Assembly (NCBI GenBank): GCA_028287465.1
Contig: JAQBPO010000069.1
Coordinates: 1-57,760, forward strand
DNA: 57,760 bases
Source: Fibrobacterota bacterium
GTDB taxonomy: Bacteria > Fibrobacterota > Fibrobacteria > UBA11236
Reading direction: 5' to 3'
The position numbers were made by a program, and so were the translations under genes. Below, piece by piece: positions 51,286 to 57,357 of the stretch (the stretch's first letter is position 1; each line of letters opens with the position of its first letter). The notes under the pieces were generated by a model that was given only the letters and a program-made list of their open reading frames with translations, made no database searches and was not told where the DNA came from.

Positions 51286-51507
51286 ATGGCGACTCCCCTA
51301 CCCAATTCCAAAGCCGGCATCCGGACCGTGATCACCGAATACGCCGATGGAAAGAACTGCTTCTCCAGCGGAGCCAAACGCGTGAAGATGGATGCCCTGT
51401 TCGAGAGCCTGGGCAAGGATATGTCCGTCTGCCCGGACGTTCCCAAGCATGTCATCGCCCTGACCGCCAAGTACCGCCAGGAAGTGGACAAAATCGCCGG
51501 AACATGA
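51286..51507 (+). CDS. Unknown 73-residue protein coupled to a methyltransferase
   Basis: A small soluble protein not recognised, with two Cys (NCFSSG and SVCPDVP) and a helical end (HVIALTAKYRQEVDKIAG). The upstream gap has TATATT near 51250 and an AAGGAA ribosome site. Its TGA overlaps the methyltransferase ATG by four bases (ATGA), so the two are made together; it may be a partner or substrate-targeting subunit of that enzyme. Confidence 0.6.
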   Translation: MATPLPNSKAGIRTVITEYADGKNCFSSGAKRVKMDALFESLGKDMSVCPDVPKHVIALTAKYRQEVDKIAGT

Positions 51508-53006
51508 GGACAGCCCGCTCGCGCATCGATCCGTTCGCCTTTTCCCCCGCGGAAATCGCCGGGATCCGCGACGCGTTCCGGAGAGCCGGATTCGACGAAG
51601 CGGGGATCTCCGGGGCCTTCGGAGTCAAGAACATCCCCTCCATCCGGGACGTGCCCGCTGAAACCGCCTTGCGGAGCACCGCCGCGGAATCCCCCCTCAA
51701 CACCCTGGCCAGGATGTTCATCATCGGCATCCCCGTCGCCCCCGAGGCCGCGGAAAAGGCGCTCGGCCCAATGCCGCTGGAGCGATTGATCGCCGGCGGC
51801 CTGCTGCGGGACATAGGCGGCCGCATCTACGCCGAGGTCAAGCTGACTCCCATCGATGGAATGCTCATCGCCTTCGACCGTTCCTGGGAGGATGAGAAGG
51901 TGGAATCCCCGGACCATGTCATGGGCCCCAGCGACAGCGCCCGCCTCCTGGCCGGCCTGGTGGTGCGGGGGGATTTCGAAAGCATGCTGGACGTGGGGGC
52001 GGGCTGCGGCTACCTCACCTTTCTGGCCGCGAGGGACAGCAAGCGGGTGGTGGCCACGGACGTGAATCCCCGGGCCGCGACGTTCCTGGCCTTCAATGCC
52101 GAGCTGAACGGGATGGGCAAGGTGGACGCGCGTACGGGGGATCTCTTCGCGCCCGTGGCGGGAGAGCGCTTCGACCTCGTCATCTCCAATCCTCCCTTCA
52201 TGATTTCCCCCGAAGACCGCCTGGTCTACCTGAACGGAGGGATGAAGGCGGACGCCTTCTGCCAGAAGATCGCGGCGGAAGCCCCCGCCTACCTCAAGGA
52301 GGGCGGTTGCTTCCAGATGCTCTGCAATTGGGTCGAGAACGCGGGCAAGGACTGGCAGGAGCGCCTGCGGGGATGGTTCGAGGGTACCGGCTGCGATACC
52401 TGGGTGCTCCGGTCCTCCACCACGGATCCCGTTTCCTACGCCATGAACTGGATGAAGCTGGGCCACAGCGACGCGTCCTCGGGGGACGCGGCGCGGCTGG
52501 AGGCGTGGCTGGAATATTACCGCGCCGAAAAGGTGGCCGCCATAGGCGCGGGCGCCGTCGTCATGCGCAAGCGTCCGGGCGGGGACAATTGGTTCCGCTC
52601 CTTCGACGGTCCCGGCAAGATCAGCGGCCCCTGCGGCGGGCAGGTCCTCGAACGCATCCAGGCCCTGGACTACATGGCGCGCCGGGTCAAGGATGACGCC
52701 GCGCTCATGGAAACCGTGTTCCGCGTGTCCCCTCATGCGCGCCTGACCCAGGAATGCGGGCCTTCGGAGCAGGGATGGGCCCAGACCCGCGCCTACGTGC
52801 AGATCACCCAGGGTTTCGCCTATGCGGAAGAGGTGGATACCTACTTCGCCGAACTCCTGGTTTCCTGCAATGGATCGCGGCCCCTCCGGGAGGCCATCGC
52901 CAGGACCGCCGCCGCCGTGGGCCTGGAGACCGCGGACATCCCTTCGGAAACCGCCGAGGTGGTTCGGCAGCTGGTCGATGAAGGGTTCCTGCTTCCGGTC
53001 GCTTAA
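51504..53006 (+). CDS. Class I SAM-dependent methyltransferase with NPPF motif
   Basis: A 500-residue protein. An N-terminal helical region of about 130 residues precedes the Rossmann fold: MLDVGAGCGYLTFLAARD (motif I), VVATDVNPRA, and LVISNPPFMISPED. The NPPF tetrad is the signature of enzymes methylating planar nitrogens, such as PrmC (glutamine) or RsmC/TrmN6 (bases). A roughly 230-residue C-terminal extension (WVLRSSTTDPVSYAMNWM, then FRSFDGPGKISGPCGGQ) is unlike PrmC and resembles two-domain methyltransferases seen in Actinobacteria. The substrate is unknown. The start overlaps the 73-residue gene. Confidence 0.82.
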   Translation: MRTARSRIDPFAFSPAEIAGIRDAFRRAGFDEAGISGAFGVKNIPSIRDVPAETALRSTAAESPLNTLARMFIIGIPVAPEAAEKALGPMPLERLIAGGLLRDIGGRIYAEVKLTPIDGMLIAFDRSWEDEKVESPDHVMGPSDSARLLAGLVVRGDFESMLDVGAGCGYLTFLAARDSKRVVATDVNPRAATFLAFNAELNGMGKVDARTGDLFAPVAGERFDLVISNPPFMISPEDRLVYLNGGMKADAFCQKIAAEAPAYLKEGGCFQMLCNWVENAGKDWQERLRGWFEGTGCDTWVLRSSTTDPVSYAMNWMKLGHSDASSGDAARLEAWLEYYRAEKVAAIGAGAVVMRKRPGGDNWFRSFDGPGKISGPCGGQVLERIQALDYMARRVKDDAALMETVFRVSPHARLTQECGPSEQGWAQTRAYVQITQGFAYAEEVDTYFAELLVSCNGSRPLREAIARTAAAVGLETADIPSETAEVVRQLVDEGFLLPVA

Positions 53007-53021: not shown

Positions 53022-53903
53022 TTAAGGCCGCACCGGCATGGGCGAGGCGAAGGGATCCAACGGGGCCGCCAAGGCCGCGACCTTAACCCTGCCCGCATGG
53101 AGGTTCTTTTCCCTGGCCACCCGGGCCGCTTCCCGCATCCCTCCGAAATAGTACCGATTGAAGAACAAGGTCGTGATCAGGGCGAAATCCATCCCGGCCA
53201 CCCATCGGGAACTCCGATCGGGGCCTTCGAGGGCGCGCCATGCGCTGAAGCCGGCCAAGGCCGCGAATCCGACGCTCAGGAAGAAGTGGCTGGCCGCGAC
53301 CCGGGGCTCCCCCGCGTACAGGAGGCCCATGCCGGGGAGGGCGGAAAGACGATAGGCCTTGTCCGGATCCAGGCTTCCCTTGGGTAACCGGTAGGATACG
53401 GGGCCCCTGGGGGCGTAACGGGTGAGGGAAAGCCCCGCGTACACGGCGGGGGCGAAATCGGCCAAGGCGGCGGAATCCCCGGGACCGGCGGAGGAATGGC
53501 GCTCGAAAACGGCATAGGCTTCGCCGAAATCCTCCCGGGCCAAGGCGGAAGCCACCAGGCCGCGCTCCGCCGCGGTCTTGTCGTCGCAGAACCGGAAGGC
53601 CAATTCGAAGGCGTACCTCCCGGCATCGGCGCGGCCGCTTTCCCAATCCAGGCAGGCGCGTTCCAGGGCGTAACGGCAATGTTGCATGTCCCCGTCGAAA
53701 AGGGATCGTTCCAGCGCCACCCGCCCCGCGATGTATTCCGGTTCGCTGCGCGCCGCGGATCCCCGGCCGCCGCAAGACGCGAGGATCGGTCGGGCCGTAT
53801 CCGCGGGGTCCGCCCCGCCGGGATCGGCGGGGTCCGCCCCGCCGGGATCGGCGGAGGCGCATGCGATCCATGCGGAAAAAAGGATCCATGGGAGCGCGCG
53901 CAT
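53022..53903 (-). CDS. Unknown exported/membrane protein, paralogue of its neighbour
   Basis: A 293-residue protein with a signal peptide ending near IACASA. A tandem 24-bp repeat (DPGGADPA units) follows. Residues 45-170 are helical and TPR-like with several Cys (CGGRG, HCRYALERACLDW, FCDD). Residues 180-265 hold two or three membrane helices (YRLSALPGMGLLYAG, FLSVGFAALAGFSAW, FALITTLFFNRYYFGG) ending in AARVAREKN. The same order and motifs occur in the upstream gene. Last gene of the lipoprotein-yidD operon. No family recognised. Confidence 0.7.
   Translation of the reverse strand: MRALPWILFSAWIACASADPGGADPADPGGADPADTARPILASCGGRGSAARSEPEYIAGRVALERSLFDGDMQHCRYALERACLDWESGRADAGRYAFELAFRFCDDKTAAERGLVASALAREDFGEAYAVFERHSSAGPGDSAALADFAPAVYAGLSLTRYAPRGPVSYRLPKGSLDPDKAYRLSALPGMGLLYAGEPRVAASHFFLSVGFAALAGFSAWRALEGPDRSSRWVAGMDFALITTLFFNRYYFGGMREAARVAREKNLHAGRVKVAALAAPLDPFASPMPVRP
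53799..53846. repeat. Tandem 24-bp palindromic repeat at the 53.9-kb gene 5' end
   Basis: Two 24-bp units (53799-53822, 53823-53846; one mismatch) and a partial third. Each carries a perfect stem of up to 8 bp (CGGCGGGG/CCCCGCCG) with a TCCG loop. In frame it encodes DPGGADPA units just after the signal peptide. Confidence 0.85.
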
Positions 53904-53915
53904 CTTCCGGACCGG

Positions 53916-54764
53916 TTATCGGAAAATCACGTCATGGAGGGAGGCCAGGAAGGCCGCCTTCCGCCGCTTGTTGGTTTCCCGGGCCGCCCGCTGCGCTCCG
54001 TACAGGTTCGACAGGTGGAACACGGCCCCGAACCCGCCGAAGGTCCAGGCGCGCACCGGCGCGTCCTCAAGGGCATAGAAGGCCGCCACCCCGTAAAACA
54101 GCGACACCACCGTGAAGGCGAAAATCCCGTCCCCGGTCTGGCCGGCATAGGCGTACCCCAATCCGGGCAGGACCGACAACCCCAGGGCCAGGCCCGGGGA
54201 CTTGAACCCGGCGGAGAGGTAACAGCGGGGATCCGCCGGTCCCGCGCAAGCCGGGTCCCCAGGGGCGGCGGGCCATGCCTCGCGGGCGGCCTCCGGTCGA
54301 TCGCCCAGGAACAAGGCCGCGGCCAGGAACCGCCTCCGCTCGTCGTCCGCCGGAGAACCGGAGCCGGAATCGGCCTGGAGGGCCTTCACGCAGGCGGTCA
54401 AGGCCTCCGGATGGGCGAAGTCCAGCAGGTGGGATTCCAGGTAATAACGACGGTAGCGGGCATCCGCCCTGGCGATATGCGGGGCCAGGATTTCCCGCGC
54501 CCGGGGGAAATCCCCTGAGTGGTACAGGGCCTTGCCCAACTCCAGATCGATTTCCGGAGGGATGGCGCAATCATCATGGGCGCGGCGGTAGATCTCGGCC
54601 TGGAAGGCGGCCAAGGCGAATTGCCGGTCCGCGTTCAATCCCTGCAGGAAACGCACGTCCCGATCGTCCGGACAGGCCATGGCCCGCGGCAGGCAGGCGA
54701 ATATGGCGACCCAGAAGGCGATCCGCACGGCGACCCGCCCGGAAGGCCTAGGGAACCGGGTCAT
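53916..54764 (-). CDS. Unknown exported TPR-like protein with C-terminal membrane helices
   Basis: A 282-residue protein. Signal peptide (IAFWVAIFACLPRAMA), then a helical TPR-like part (45-150: ALAAFQAEIYRRAHDDC, ELGKALYHSGDFPRAREIL), then membrane helices (LGLSVLPGLGYAYAGQ, GIFAFTVVSLFYGVAAFY, TFGGFGAVFHLSNLYG) and AARETNKRR. The ALPGMG/VLPGLG-Y.G-type turn and the terminal NLYGAQRAARETN match the downstream gene, so they are paralogues. The ATG lies 17 bases inside the end of yidD. Confidence 0.7.
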   Translation of the reverse strand: MTRFPRPSGRVAVRIAFWVAIFACLPRAMACPDDRDVRFLQGLNADRQFALAAFQAEIYRRAHDDCAIPPEIDLELGKALYHSGDFPRAREILAPHIARADARYRRYYLESHLLDFAHPEALTACVKALQADSGSGSPADDERRRFLAAALFLGDRPEAAREAWPAAPGDPACAGPADPRCYLSAGFKSPGLALGLSVLPGLGYAYAGQTGDGIFAFTVVSLFYGVAAFYALEDAPVRAWTFGGFGAVFHLSNLYGAQRAARETNKRRKAAFLASLHDVIFR

Positions 54765-55143
54765 GGAAATGCCTTTCCGGCCCGACCAGCGGGTAGGCGG
54801 ATTTGTCGAACCCGTTGCAGCGCATCACCCGGTCCCCGGTCATGAGGATGCCTTGGGCCAACCCATGGCCGCGGATGGCGTCACGGGCGAACCCCGAGCA
54901 GGTGGGCGAGAATCCGCAGGTGGGCCCGTCCGCCGGGGAAATGCCTGATTGGTAGAAGCCGAGAAGCAGGGTGAAAAACGCCTTGAGGACTCCCGGCCCT
55001 TTGCCCGGATGGCCTGCCTGGCCCTCCAGGAAGGCCTGGGAAATGGGTTCCGTTCCCTCGCCGCCGGCCCGGCCGGGGAACCAGGCCGCCAGGGACAGGC
55101 ATGCCAAGGCGACTAGGGCGGCACGGCGGTAACCGGGAATCAC
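54748..55143 (-). CDS. yidD: Membrane protein insertion efficiency factor YidD with an N-terminal signal
   Basis: A 131-residue protein. The YidD/DUF37 core is plain: LLGFYQSGISPADGPTCGFSPTCSGFARDAI, then GLAQGILMTGDRVMRCN. Unlike normal YidD (about 70-85 residues) it has a hydrophobic N-terminal segment (RRAALVALACLSLAAWFPG) and a spacer before the core. The start is GTG in a GTGA overlap with the lipoprotein stop. Normally yidD sits between rnpA and yidC; here it is in an envelope operon followed by two TPR/membrane genes. It may be a specialised variant. The final HDPVP tail is not part of the family. Confidence 0.85.
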   Translation of the reverse strand: MIPGYRRAALVALACLSLAAWFPGRAGGEGTEPISQAFLEGQAGHPGKGPGVLKAFFTLLLGFYQSGISPADGPTCGFSPTCSGFARDAIRGHGLAQGILMTGDRVMRCNGFDKSAYPLVGPERHFHDPVP

Positions 55144-55940
55144 GGGGCCGGAGGAAGGGTGGCCTGGCCCAATTGGAGGCGCTCCGGATCCAACCGGTTC
55201 AGGAAGGCGGTGATCAGATCCTTCAGCTGGGTGGACATGTCCGAGCCGCTTCCGCTGATGGCCGAGGATTGCGGGCTGAGGCAAAAGCCGCCGGAGTTCG
55301 AGATGGTGCCCGACGCATAGGCTAGCTCGCCGGTCTCGGCGGACCAGACGCCGTACCGGACGTCCGCGGTGTAGACCGTTGAGCTGGACGAGCCGTTGGT
55401 GGTATAGGTCGTGATGATCTTGCCGATCATCTTGGGGTCGACCAGGGCGATGATATAGTCCACGGAATCGTTCTGCTTCAGCTTCTCCGCCCAGGCCTTC
55501 ATCTGGCCCCCGCCGCGGCTCGGCTGGTAGTCGATGGGCTTGATGTTCCCGCCATTGTCGTTATACTGGCTCAACCCCATCTTGCCGATATCCGAAGCGG
55601 CCAGGGAGTAGAAGGACGGCGCGCTGATGCCCAGTTCCTCCAGGCGCTCCGAGGGGATGGAGACGAACTTCTGCTTCTTGAAGGCCCCGGTCAGGGATTT
55701 GATGATCCGGCCTTCCCATTCCTTGCGGTATTTCGGGCCGTCCTCGGGGTGGCCATTGCTCATGCAGCTGGAAGGAGGGCTGTATTCCATTTCCGGCATG
55801 GAGAGTATCCCGAAAGTTACCCCGTCGAGCTTCTTGTCCTTGTAGTCTTCGCTCATGTGGCGGGTGTAACGCTCGGAGCATCCCGTGGAAACGAGGGCCA
55901 AGGCCAGGGCGGGCATGCGTAGGGTCTTGAGGAATTCCAT
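55140..55940 (-). CDS. Unknown lipoprotein, first gene of the yidD operon
   Basis: A 266-residue lipoprotein with a good lipobox (LVSTGC, Cys21). The mature protein has an alpha/beta pattern: GVTFGILSMPEMEY, then helix WEGRIIKSLTGAFKKQKFV, SIPSERLEELGIS, VDYIIALVDPKMIG and ADVRYGVWSAETGELAYASG. The last pair resembles outer-membrane lipoproteins that report a variable to other subunits (GNA1162- or CsgG-like layout), but I cannot assign it. Two Cys (SSCMSNG and GGFCLSP) could pair. The operon continues through a GTGA overlap into yidD. Confidence 0.7.
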   Translation of the reverse strand: MEFLKTLRMPALALALVSTGCSERYTRHMSEDYKDKKLDGVTFGILSMPEMEYSPPSSCMSNGHPEDGPKYRKEWEGRIIKSLTGAFKKQKFVSIPSERLEELGISAPSFYSLAASDIGKMGLSQYNDNGGNIKPIDYQPSRGGGQMKAWAEKLKQNDSVDYIIALVDPKMIGKIITTYTTNGSSSSTVYTADVRYGVWSAETGELAYASGTISNSGGFCLSPQSSAISGSGSDMSTQLKDLITAFLNRLDPERLQLGQATLPPAP

Positions 55941-56097
55941 TCAATCCTTCCACGGCCCGGATAAAGCGGGACCGGTACGAAAACGAAGCGGCGGATTCGA
56001 GAAATGCGCGGGAGCGCGATCACAAAAGATCGGGGAATATATACATTTCGCCGGCCCGCCGTCACAGTCGATAAAAAACTTTCCCCGGAGTCTTTCA

Positions 56098-57357
56098 ATG
56101 GGCCTTTTCCGGTCCGCCCTTGCCGTCGCATGCCTTTTCCTTTTCGGGATATCCGCTTCCCCGGCCCCCGCCAGCGTCATCTTCACCGAAAAACAGGTCC
56201 TGACCCGGGACAAGACCCTGGACGTTACGGTATGGAGGCCGGACAGCGCCTTCGACGCCGCGGACACCGCATGGTCCTGCGGCAAGGCCTACGGCACCCT
56301 GAACGTCTCCTCGTGCCTCGTCAGACCGTACGTGCGCACTTCGAACGTACGCGACCAGTATCTCTATTGGGCGTTCCTGAACCTTTCCGGCGGCACCGAA
56401 CGCGCGGACCTGACTCCCCAGGTGGAGGAGCAGGAGGCTTTTTTCGAGGGCCTGCAAAAGCCCCTCCTGGCCCTGAAGCAGAAGGGCGGCACCTGCCAAT
56501 ACCTGATCGCCTACCATGACGGCTATGCGCCCCTGGCCGCCGGGACGGTCCTATGCCCGGATCTCGCCACCGCCCTCCGCGGCGTGGAGGAAGACATGGC
56601 CGGACACGCCTCCATGGTCCCGAGCCGGGACAAGGCGCCCGGGAGCAAGCACGTGATGCATCGCGGGGAATTCTCCACCGATGTCCCCAATGCCATCGAT
56701 TGGGGGTTGGAGGCGGCCCCGGCCCTGGCCATCGGCTGGAGTTCCGATCATACCGACAGCGCCGGCCCTTTCACATCGGAAGTGCGGACCTTCGACTTCA
56801 ACGACCTAGCGACCCGGGACCTGTTCCCCCTGGCCGTCCGCGCCTTCATGGTCTATAAGGGTTCCGTGGGGCTCCGCCTGGGGTATGCCTATTCCAGTTT
56901 CGATCTGGCGTCCGAATTCAAGGACCGGATCCGGGCGGACCTGGCCGCCCAAGGCCAGACCCTGGACGACTGGAAGATCGCGAGGCACGATTACTCCCTG
57001 GAACTTACGGCCGGAAAGCCCTATACCAACGGGAATGCCGAACTGGGCTGGTACGCCTCCATCGGCTTCGCCAAGGTGGACTTCCGGGAAACCGCCACCG
57101 TCAGCGGGAAGGACTACAAGGACGCGGGCCTGCTCGCCGATCAGACCGCCTTCCTGATCGGCGCCGGGGGCGAGGTCAAGCTGGCCCGTTGCATTGTCAT
57201 GGGACTGGAGCTGGGATTGATGGTCAAGGATTTCGAACTCAGGAACTCGACCAGGCAACCCGACGGCAGCGGCAATGAAATCCAGTTGCGCCTGCGCCTG
57301 GGGGGGTTCAGCCGGATGCACCTCGCGTCCCCCGCCGCTCCCGACCATGCTCCTTAG
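56098..57357 (+). CDS. Unknown outer-membrane-type protein
   Basis: A 419-residue exported protein. The start at MGLFRSALAVACLFLF was chosen for its signal peptide and a GGAG seven bases upstream. The N-terminal half (30-200) is soluble with three or four Cys (WSCGKAYG, VSSCLVRP, TCQYLIAYH). The C-terminal half (210-410) looks like an outer-membrane beta barrel, with alternating strands such as VGLRLGYAYSSFDL, AELGWYASIGFAKVDF, CIVMGLELGLMVKDF and IQLRLRLGGFSRM. TATATA at about 56039 with a small CGATC/GATCG inverted repeat is a possible promoter. No family recognised. Confidence 0.7.
   Translation: MGLFRSALAVACLFLFGISASPAPASVIFTEKQVLTRDKTLDVTVWRPDSAFDAADTAWSCGKAYGTLNVSSCLVRPYVRTSNVRDQYLYWAFLNLSGGTERADLTPQVEEQEAFFEGLQKPLLALKQKGGTCQYLIAYHDGYAPLAAGTVLCPDLATALRGVEEDMAGHASMVPSRDKAPGSKHVMHRGEFSTDVPNAIDWGLEAAPALAIGWSSDHTDSAGPFTSEVRTFDFNDLATRDLFPLAVRAFMVYKGSVGLRLGYAYSSFDLASEFKDRIRADLAAQGQTLDDWKIARHDYSLELTAGKPYTNGNAELGWYASIGFAKVDFRETATVSGKDYKDAGLLADQTAFLIGAGGEVKLARCIVMGLELGLMVKDFELRNSTRQPDGSGNEIQLRLRLGGFSRMHLASPAAPDHAP

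Follow-up and report, generated by a model that had tools for sequence, protein, structure and literature searches.

The window analysed here, the 57,760 nucleotides at positions 1 to 57,760 of contig JAQBPO010000069.1 from a Fibrobacterota bacterium (GenBank assembly GCA_028287465.1), contains a minus-strand operon of four genes that includes an unusual, apparently exported form of YidD. The first gene, LP (55140..55940), encodes a predicted outer-membrane-type lipoprotein with a lipobox-like cysteine at residue 21. The yidD gene (54748..55143), whose GTG start lies inside the overlap with the LP stop, encodes an N-terminal signal-like segment followed by a YidD domain at residues 55-117. Next come TPR1 (53916..54764), with an N-terminal signal-like segment, weak tetratricopeptide repeats (TPR) and a C-terminal membrane module (PGxGYxYAG ... 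NxYGAxxAAxxxN), and TPR2 (53022..53903), a diverged paralogue of TPR1 with the same type of C-terminal membrane module. LP and yidD overlap by four bases (GTGA), yidD and TPR1 by 17 bases, and TPR1 is separated from TPR2 by a 12-base gap, an arrangement that an earlier sequence-only reading of the locus had already placed correctly in coordinates and junctions. The G+C content at third codon positions is in the coding range for all four genes (0.80-0.86), and the clustering goes beyond chance because other genomes repeat this gene order.

The YidD of the window passes both curated cut-offs for its family, with 65.3 bits against Pfam PF01809 (cut-off 27) and 64.1 bits against TIGR00278 (cut-off 40); a search against PDB sequences returned no match. 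YidD is generally taken to help membrane insertion from the cytoplasmic side, and work by Yu et al. in 2011 reportedly concerns the role of cytoplasmic YidD near Sec and YidC. That role is also the subject of one table entry in PMC8082313. The source genome contains two YidD matches, scoring 88.7 bits on contig C20 and, in the same contig profile search, 66.5 bits on the window contig (C40). The C20 gene lies downstream of rpmH, with between them a short open reading frame (ORF) taken for rnpA by eye and without a profile run, and the window gene lies between LP and TPR1, outside the canonical rpmH/rnpA neighbourhood. The possibility that the operon holds the only yidD of the genome, which the sequence-only reading had named as fatal to its proposal, is thereby removed.

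Exported YidD is a distinct subfamily of YidD. A tree built from 88 YidD domains over 91 columns has many unresolved inner forks, and one of its branches, with 100/100 support, separates all 53 exported-type rows, including that of the window, from 30 canonical rows and from five others that belong to two further divergent types; the exported-type rows were drawn from 104 (23 by chosen name prefixes and 30 at random). All 103 exported-type ORFs have a signal-like N-terminus, defined by a hydrophobic 12-mer and detected with a simple hydropathy and small-x-small rule rather than a trained predictor, as against two of the 58 canonical ORFs, each of them with a long upstream extension; this count leaves out the partial L124 from the exported set and L002, L043 and L227 from the canonical set. 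In 90 of the 103 the signal-like segment is preceded by a positive N-region. The hydrophobic N-terminal extension and the distance from rnpA/rpmH that had been noted for the window gene are thus both borne out, by hydropathy and gene context, whereas 56 of the 58 canonical ORFs have no such export signal by the same simple rule.

Three cysteines (residues 82, 88 and 115 in locus L078) are kept in 46/48, 50/50 and 46/46 non-gap rows, respectively, and are shared with canonical YidD. In place of the canonical ending (GGxDPVP-like) stands another segment. In 20 genomes, exported-type Pfam matches end at positions 54-60 of 67, as opposed to 66-67 for the canonical form and 64 for the window copy. 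The exported form further differs from the canonical one in being followed by, or fused to, TPR-membrane proteins instead of lying beside rnpA/rpmH. A second, better-scoring yidD match is found in 17 of 20 module-bearing genomes, and a crude motif search places an rnpA- or rpmH-like sequence beside nine of these 17 copies.

Other YidD variants occur in the window's phylum. In the window's class, G060, G062 and G090 encode copies with long N-terminal hydrophobic anchors that form their own tree branch (L066:2016-2513, L067:4543-5064 and L069:5229-5654). Two genomes of the window's genus, G159 and G157, encode a divergent YidD-like domain with a changed cysteine motif (L053 and L054), whose scores of 38.4 and 33.9 bits are low but above the Pfam cut-off. 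The extra copies of these five genomes were not accepted as module members, three having N-terminal membrane anchors and two the other divergent form, nor were those of G007 and G058, which are canonical-looking where examined.

Both features that define the exported YidD-TPR-membrane module, namely a YidD domain on the exported branch and an adjacent TPR protein with the membrane module, are found in the window's YidD and TPR1. TPR1 matches the profile of the TPR half of the family with 68.5 bits, and a TPR2 profile aligns to the family profile with an hhalign probability of 94% (E 1.3e-7); the two proteins are paralogous over their C-terminal membrane module (BLASTP E 7e-5). The TPR-plus-membrane-helix layout previously ascribed to both proteins therefore stands as far as the common membrane module is concerned, but its TPR part is weak in TPR1, where Pfam gives only sub-threshold matches (21.1 bits; cut-off 27), and undetected by Pfam in TPR2.

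An AlphaFold2 model of a fused relative (L078:2091-3347; 58 alignment rows) has a mean predicted local distance difference test score (pLDDT) of 82.9 and a predicted template modelling score of 0.64, and consists of an N-terminal helix (residues 7-29), the YidD domain (64-134), TPR-like helices (164-311) and helices at 323-340, 344-366 and 370-413, with two long helices after the TPR-like part at the C-terminus. Among the Foldseek matches shown for this model there are only generic TPR-type helical proteins and none at E 0.001. The weak matches include LapB and chains of the BAM complex (E 0.02 and above), in line with a likeness to LapB- or BamD-type envelope TPR scaffolds in their helical repeats; unlike these, the module protein carries PGxGYxY and GNIxG motifs in a membrane module at its C-terminus. 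The tail beyond the last membrane stretch is rich in Lys and Arg, with on average 5.4 basic versus 2.4 acidic residues in 49 rows, consistent with the C-terminus lying in the cytoplasm and YidD and TPR outside it. A helical hairpin-like module at the C-terminus would anchor the TPR protein in the inner membrane, and the YidD domain and TPR repeats may be located on the periplasmic face. TPR proteins of the Desulfobacterota type (L097, L101, L109, L129, L139 and L151) often have a short strand-like end with a C-terminal aromatic residue, which resembles the ending of outer-membrane proteins and is puzzling in a protein of the inner membrane.

When named genomes were scanned with the fused alignment, 180 relatives were confirmed; the best 80 of them, including many metagenome bins, were used for the neighbourhood results. 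Their phylum labels include Bacteroidota, Thermodesulfobacteriota, Fibrobacterota, Verrucomicrobiota, Elusimicrobiota, Omnitrophota, Cloacimonadota, Eiseniibacteriota and KSB1, and the yidD/TPR-membrane pair, separate or fused, is present in at least eight phyla. Gene calling in these loci took the longest non-overlapping ORFs, so that some starts are too far upstream; among the YidD ORFs so obtained 37 are fused and 40 separate, and there are 38 TPR partners, with no module ORF found by profiles in L149 and L154 and no YidD ORF in L155. In whole-genome samples the module is present in at least 25 of 198 Bacteroidota genomes (the phylum of Anditalea) and at least 36 of 148 Thermodesulfobacteriota genomes (the phylum of L121), both hand counts of TPR-half matches at E 1e-18 or better that are lower bounds from up to 9 or 13 candidates scored per genome, and in at least 15 of 117 Cloacimonadota genomes (the phylum of Syntrophosphaera) at 1e-20. 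Cultured Bacteroidota with the module include Belliella and Mucilaginibacter. As in the window, a tandem pair of TPR-membrane matches is found in 22 of 25 Bacteroidota-group genomes; ten such loci comprise eight with the order yidD-TPR-TPR, one with two TPR genes and no called yidD ORF, and one fusion. A description of an exported YidD-TPR module was not found in the open-access literature, most subscription journals lying outside this search.

The genes around the module differ between phyla. Thirty-six of the 80 loci are of Desulfobacterota type (labelled Thermodesulfobacteriota, Myxococcota or Pseudomonadota, plus the two unlabelled Deltaproteobacteria L106 and L118), and here the module is often associated with the type II secretion system (T2SS). 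A gspE-like gene lies immediately upstream on the same strand in 16 of the 36, with a four-base overlap in three, when L133 and L150, whose retrieved sequence includes no upstream gene, and L149 and L154 are counted as misses; some gsp-like gene is found in the sequence around the module in 23 of the 36, L154 being counted here. The relatedness of these genomes means that their loci do not count as independent cases. In L121, GspN, C, D and E, encoded upstream of the module, score above NCBIfam cut-offs and GspL and M below, and in L140 GspF and G are above as well. The likeness to the gspC-N operon of Desulfobacterota, where the exported yidD-TPR directly follows gspE, contrasts with the remaining loci and with the source genome, whose four secretin matches, secretin being the only gsp component searched, are on contigs C83, C81, C55 and C73 and none on the window contig. 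Secretins are nevertheless present in five of six searched module genomes of the window's phylum; since the sixth, G160, has no secretin match at all, the T2SS was rejected as an obligate partner.

A further neighbour, a conserved unnamed protein of about 175 residues that looks exported, is found near the module in 36 of the 80 loci, mostly as the next gene (examples are L068:5709-6233, L104:9055-9582 and L146:6291-6797). It is seen in Bacteroidota, Verrucomicrobiota, Omnitrophota, Elusimicrobiota and Cloacimonadota as well as on the contig of G160, and has no Pfam match where tested.

Within the window's phylum, 152 of 167 genomes have at least one YidD match, and module-profile matches identify the module in seven (G000, G156, G160, G154, G002, G020 and G036). 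The whole layout is conserved in G156, of the same genus, including BB, a secreted protein encoded divergently from LP in the window (56098..57357, plus strand): BB/LP-yidD-TPR1-TPR2, with best protein identities to the window of 39% for BB, 50% for LP, 57% for YidD, 48% for TPR1 and 55% for TPR2. In G154, of the same order, BB/LP-yidD-TPR1 is seen as far as the contig end, so that the absence of synteny in relatives, which would have spoken against the proposed system, is not what is seen. In G036 and G002, LP is followed by a single fused protein with a signal-like segment, YidD, TPR and membrane module; a second module copy of G156, on contig C52, is also fused, and G160 has a separate yidD/TPR pair and no LP. 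The side of the operon occupied by LP shows one further variation in G002, where two LP genes lie in tandem ahead of the fused YidD-TPR gene (L071:1383-3216).

LP itself is present in five of the 167 genomes, where six of six matches adjoin the module, and its lipobox-like cysteine is kept in six of six aligned rows. Pfam and NCBIfam searches gave no family match at E 1 for LP, TPR2 or BB. In a low-confidence model of LP built from three sequences, the predicted topology resembles that of the lipoproteins CsgG, PelC, FlgT and HpaA, which, with other LP matches, we take to form one fold group: the top Foldseek matches are FlgT, HpaA and CsgG (E 7e-5 to 5e-4), followed by PelC, TolB and GNA1162. 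Superposition with VIA-align gives Z-scores of 9.4 for FlgT (root-mean-square deviation 3.3, 156 residues aligned), 9.1 for XCC0632 (3.5, 149) and 8.9 for HpaA (4.7, 155), whereas those for PelC (7.9; 3.4, 129) and CsgG (7.3; 4.2, 151) are below 8 and may reflect only a common arrangement. LP resembles this group in its lipobox-like cysteine and, going by the low-confidence model, in a predicted topology whose structural matches are mostly members of the group, and differs from it in having no match at the level of sequence families or PDB sequences. Two candidates from other loci, lipoprotein-like proteins encoded ahead of the module in L098 (KSB1) and L077, were rejected as LP because they do not match its alignment (hhalign probability 0.4% and 2.1%, respectively).

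BB, a protein without a family match that was described earlier as barrel-like, is divergently adjacent to the module in three genomes (G000, G156 and G154). Of the 167 genomes, 30 have BB-like matches, which are mostly weak, the strong ones being in the same three and in G157, which has no module; conversely, no BB match is found at five module loci of the phylum (G156 contig C52, G160, G002, G020 and G036). BB was therefore rejected as an exclusive, dedicated client of the module, and the suggestion that the product of the gene at 56098 is served by the operon is not supported, yet its divergent position recurs in three genomes.

The reading that we put forward, at somewhat less than even confidence, is that the operon belongs to a widespread, uncharacterised envelope module that most likely assists the assembly or operation of an envelope-spanning export machinery, a target suggested by its proposed partners, LP with its ring- or pore-type predicted fold and the T2SS. 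The module would most likely be a periplasm-facing, inner-membrane-anchored accessory of envelope assembly or secretion. Its TPR part may recruit client or partner proteins on their way out of the Sec translocon or into a larger assembly, and exported YidD could stabilise them, in a mirror image of the role presumed for cytoplasmic YidD near YidC. The outer-membrane partner would be LP in this lineage, given its predicted resemblance to ring- or pore-forming lipoproteins, and the T2SS in Desulfobacterota-type genomes. Synteny, YidD-TPR fusions, signal sequences, the linkage to LP and the proximity to T2SS genes in another group agree with the dedicated envelope device of the sequence-only reading; membrane insertion in the manner of YidD/YidC, also part of that proposal, is doubtful because the YidD domain is predicted to be exported.

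Several observations weigh against an accessory of envelope-spanning export. The T2SS link is confined to one related group, with no gsp match in the other 44 of the 80 loci, and G160 has the module and no secretin match; as neighbours vary between phyla, no single partner system explains all occurrences. The LP model has a pLDDT of 50.8, and no PDB sequence matches LP below E 0.1, the best (E 0.13) being judged a chance match. Moreover, the module is patchy, being present in seven of 167 genomes of the phylum and two of six of the genus, has no functional annotation beyond YidD, and its predicted orientation, with a cytoplasmic C-terminus and YidD and TPR on the periplasmic face, is read from hydrophobicity and charge only.

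More broadly, exported YidD, anchored via its TPR-membrane partner, might be a general periplasmic envelope-assembly factor in at least eight phyla, coupled lineage by lineage to different export machines or partners: Desulfobacterota would pair it with the T2SS, Fibrobacterota with a PelC/CsgG-like lipoprotein, and Bacteroidota, Cloacimonadota, Elusimicrobiota and others with the 175-residue protein. We regard this broader role as conceivable but rather doubtful. Unlikely, too, is that the protein is a paralogue with the canonical job, its N-terminal segment being a membrane anchor from which it still helps YidC/Sec at the inner membrane; profile scores over the cut-offs and retention of the three cysteines and a DRLxRC segment fit such a paralogue, but the separate 100/100 branch, the early end of exported-type Pfam matches (less marked in the window copy) and the canonical copy in 17 of 20 module genomes do not, and the signal-like N-terminus, mostly with a positive N-region, predicts export of the domain.

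An accessory of T2SS or type IV pilus machinery in all hosts, in which the exported YidD-TPR pair helps (pseudo)pilins or the secretin to insert or assemble, would explain the gspE genes directly upstream, their occasional four-base overlaps, the other gsp genes nearby and the secretins of five phylum genomes; it is improbable in view of G160, of the 44 loci without gsp matches and of a window contig without secretin. If anything a shade less probable is a lineage-specific surface export pore, with LP as a CsgG/PelC-like ring, BB as an outer-membrane protein and YidD-TPR as an inner-membrane assembly factor for that pore only: LP always accompanies the module, its predicted fold matches PelC and CsgG, and BB is divergent in three genomes, but G160, G020 and G156 contig C52 have modules with neither LP nor BB, G157 has BB and no module, and other phyla pair the module with other partners. 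Chance clustering of four unrelated genes, for which only the sparse occurrence in the phylum speaks, is contradicted by the synteny with G156 and G154, the gene fusions and the pairs of TPR genes that follow yidD in tandem in another phylum, and can be considered negligible.

Should the domain work in the periplasm, the name YidD, which automatic annotation also gives to the exported form, would mislead, and a conserved, experimentally approachable gene pair beside the T2SS would offer a direct route to what the YidD domain does. A vague annotation becomes a testable question about where the domain is located and what it holds.

At the borders of the operon, the 157-base region between the divergent LP and BB genes (55941..56097) contains a single weak promoter-like match (56036-56065, minus strand). 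On the other side, a convergent gene at 51504-53006 encodes a methyltransferase with DUF7059, MTS and DUF7782 domains and ends 15 bases from TPR2.

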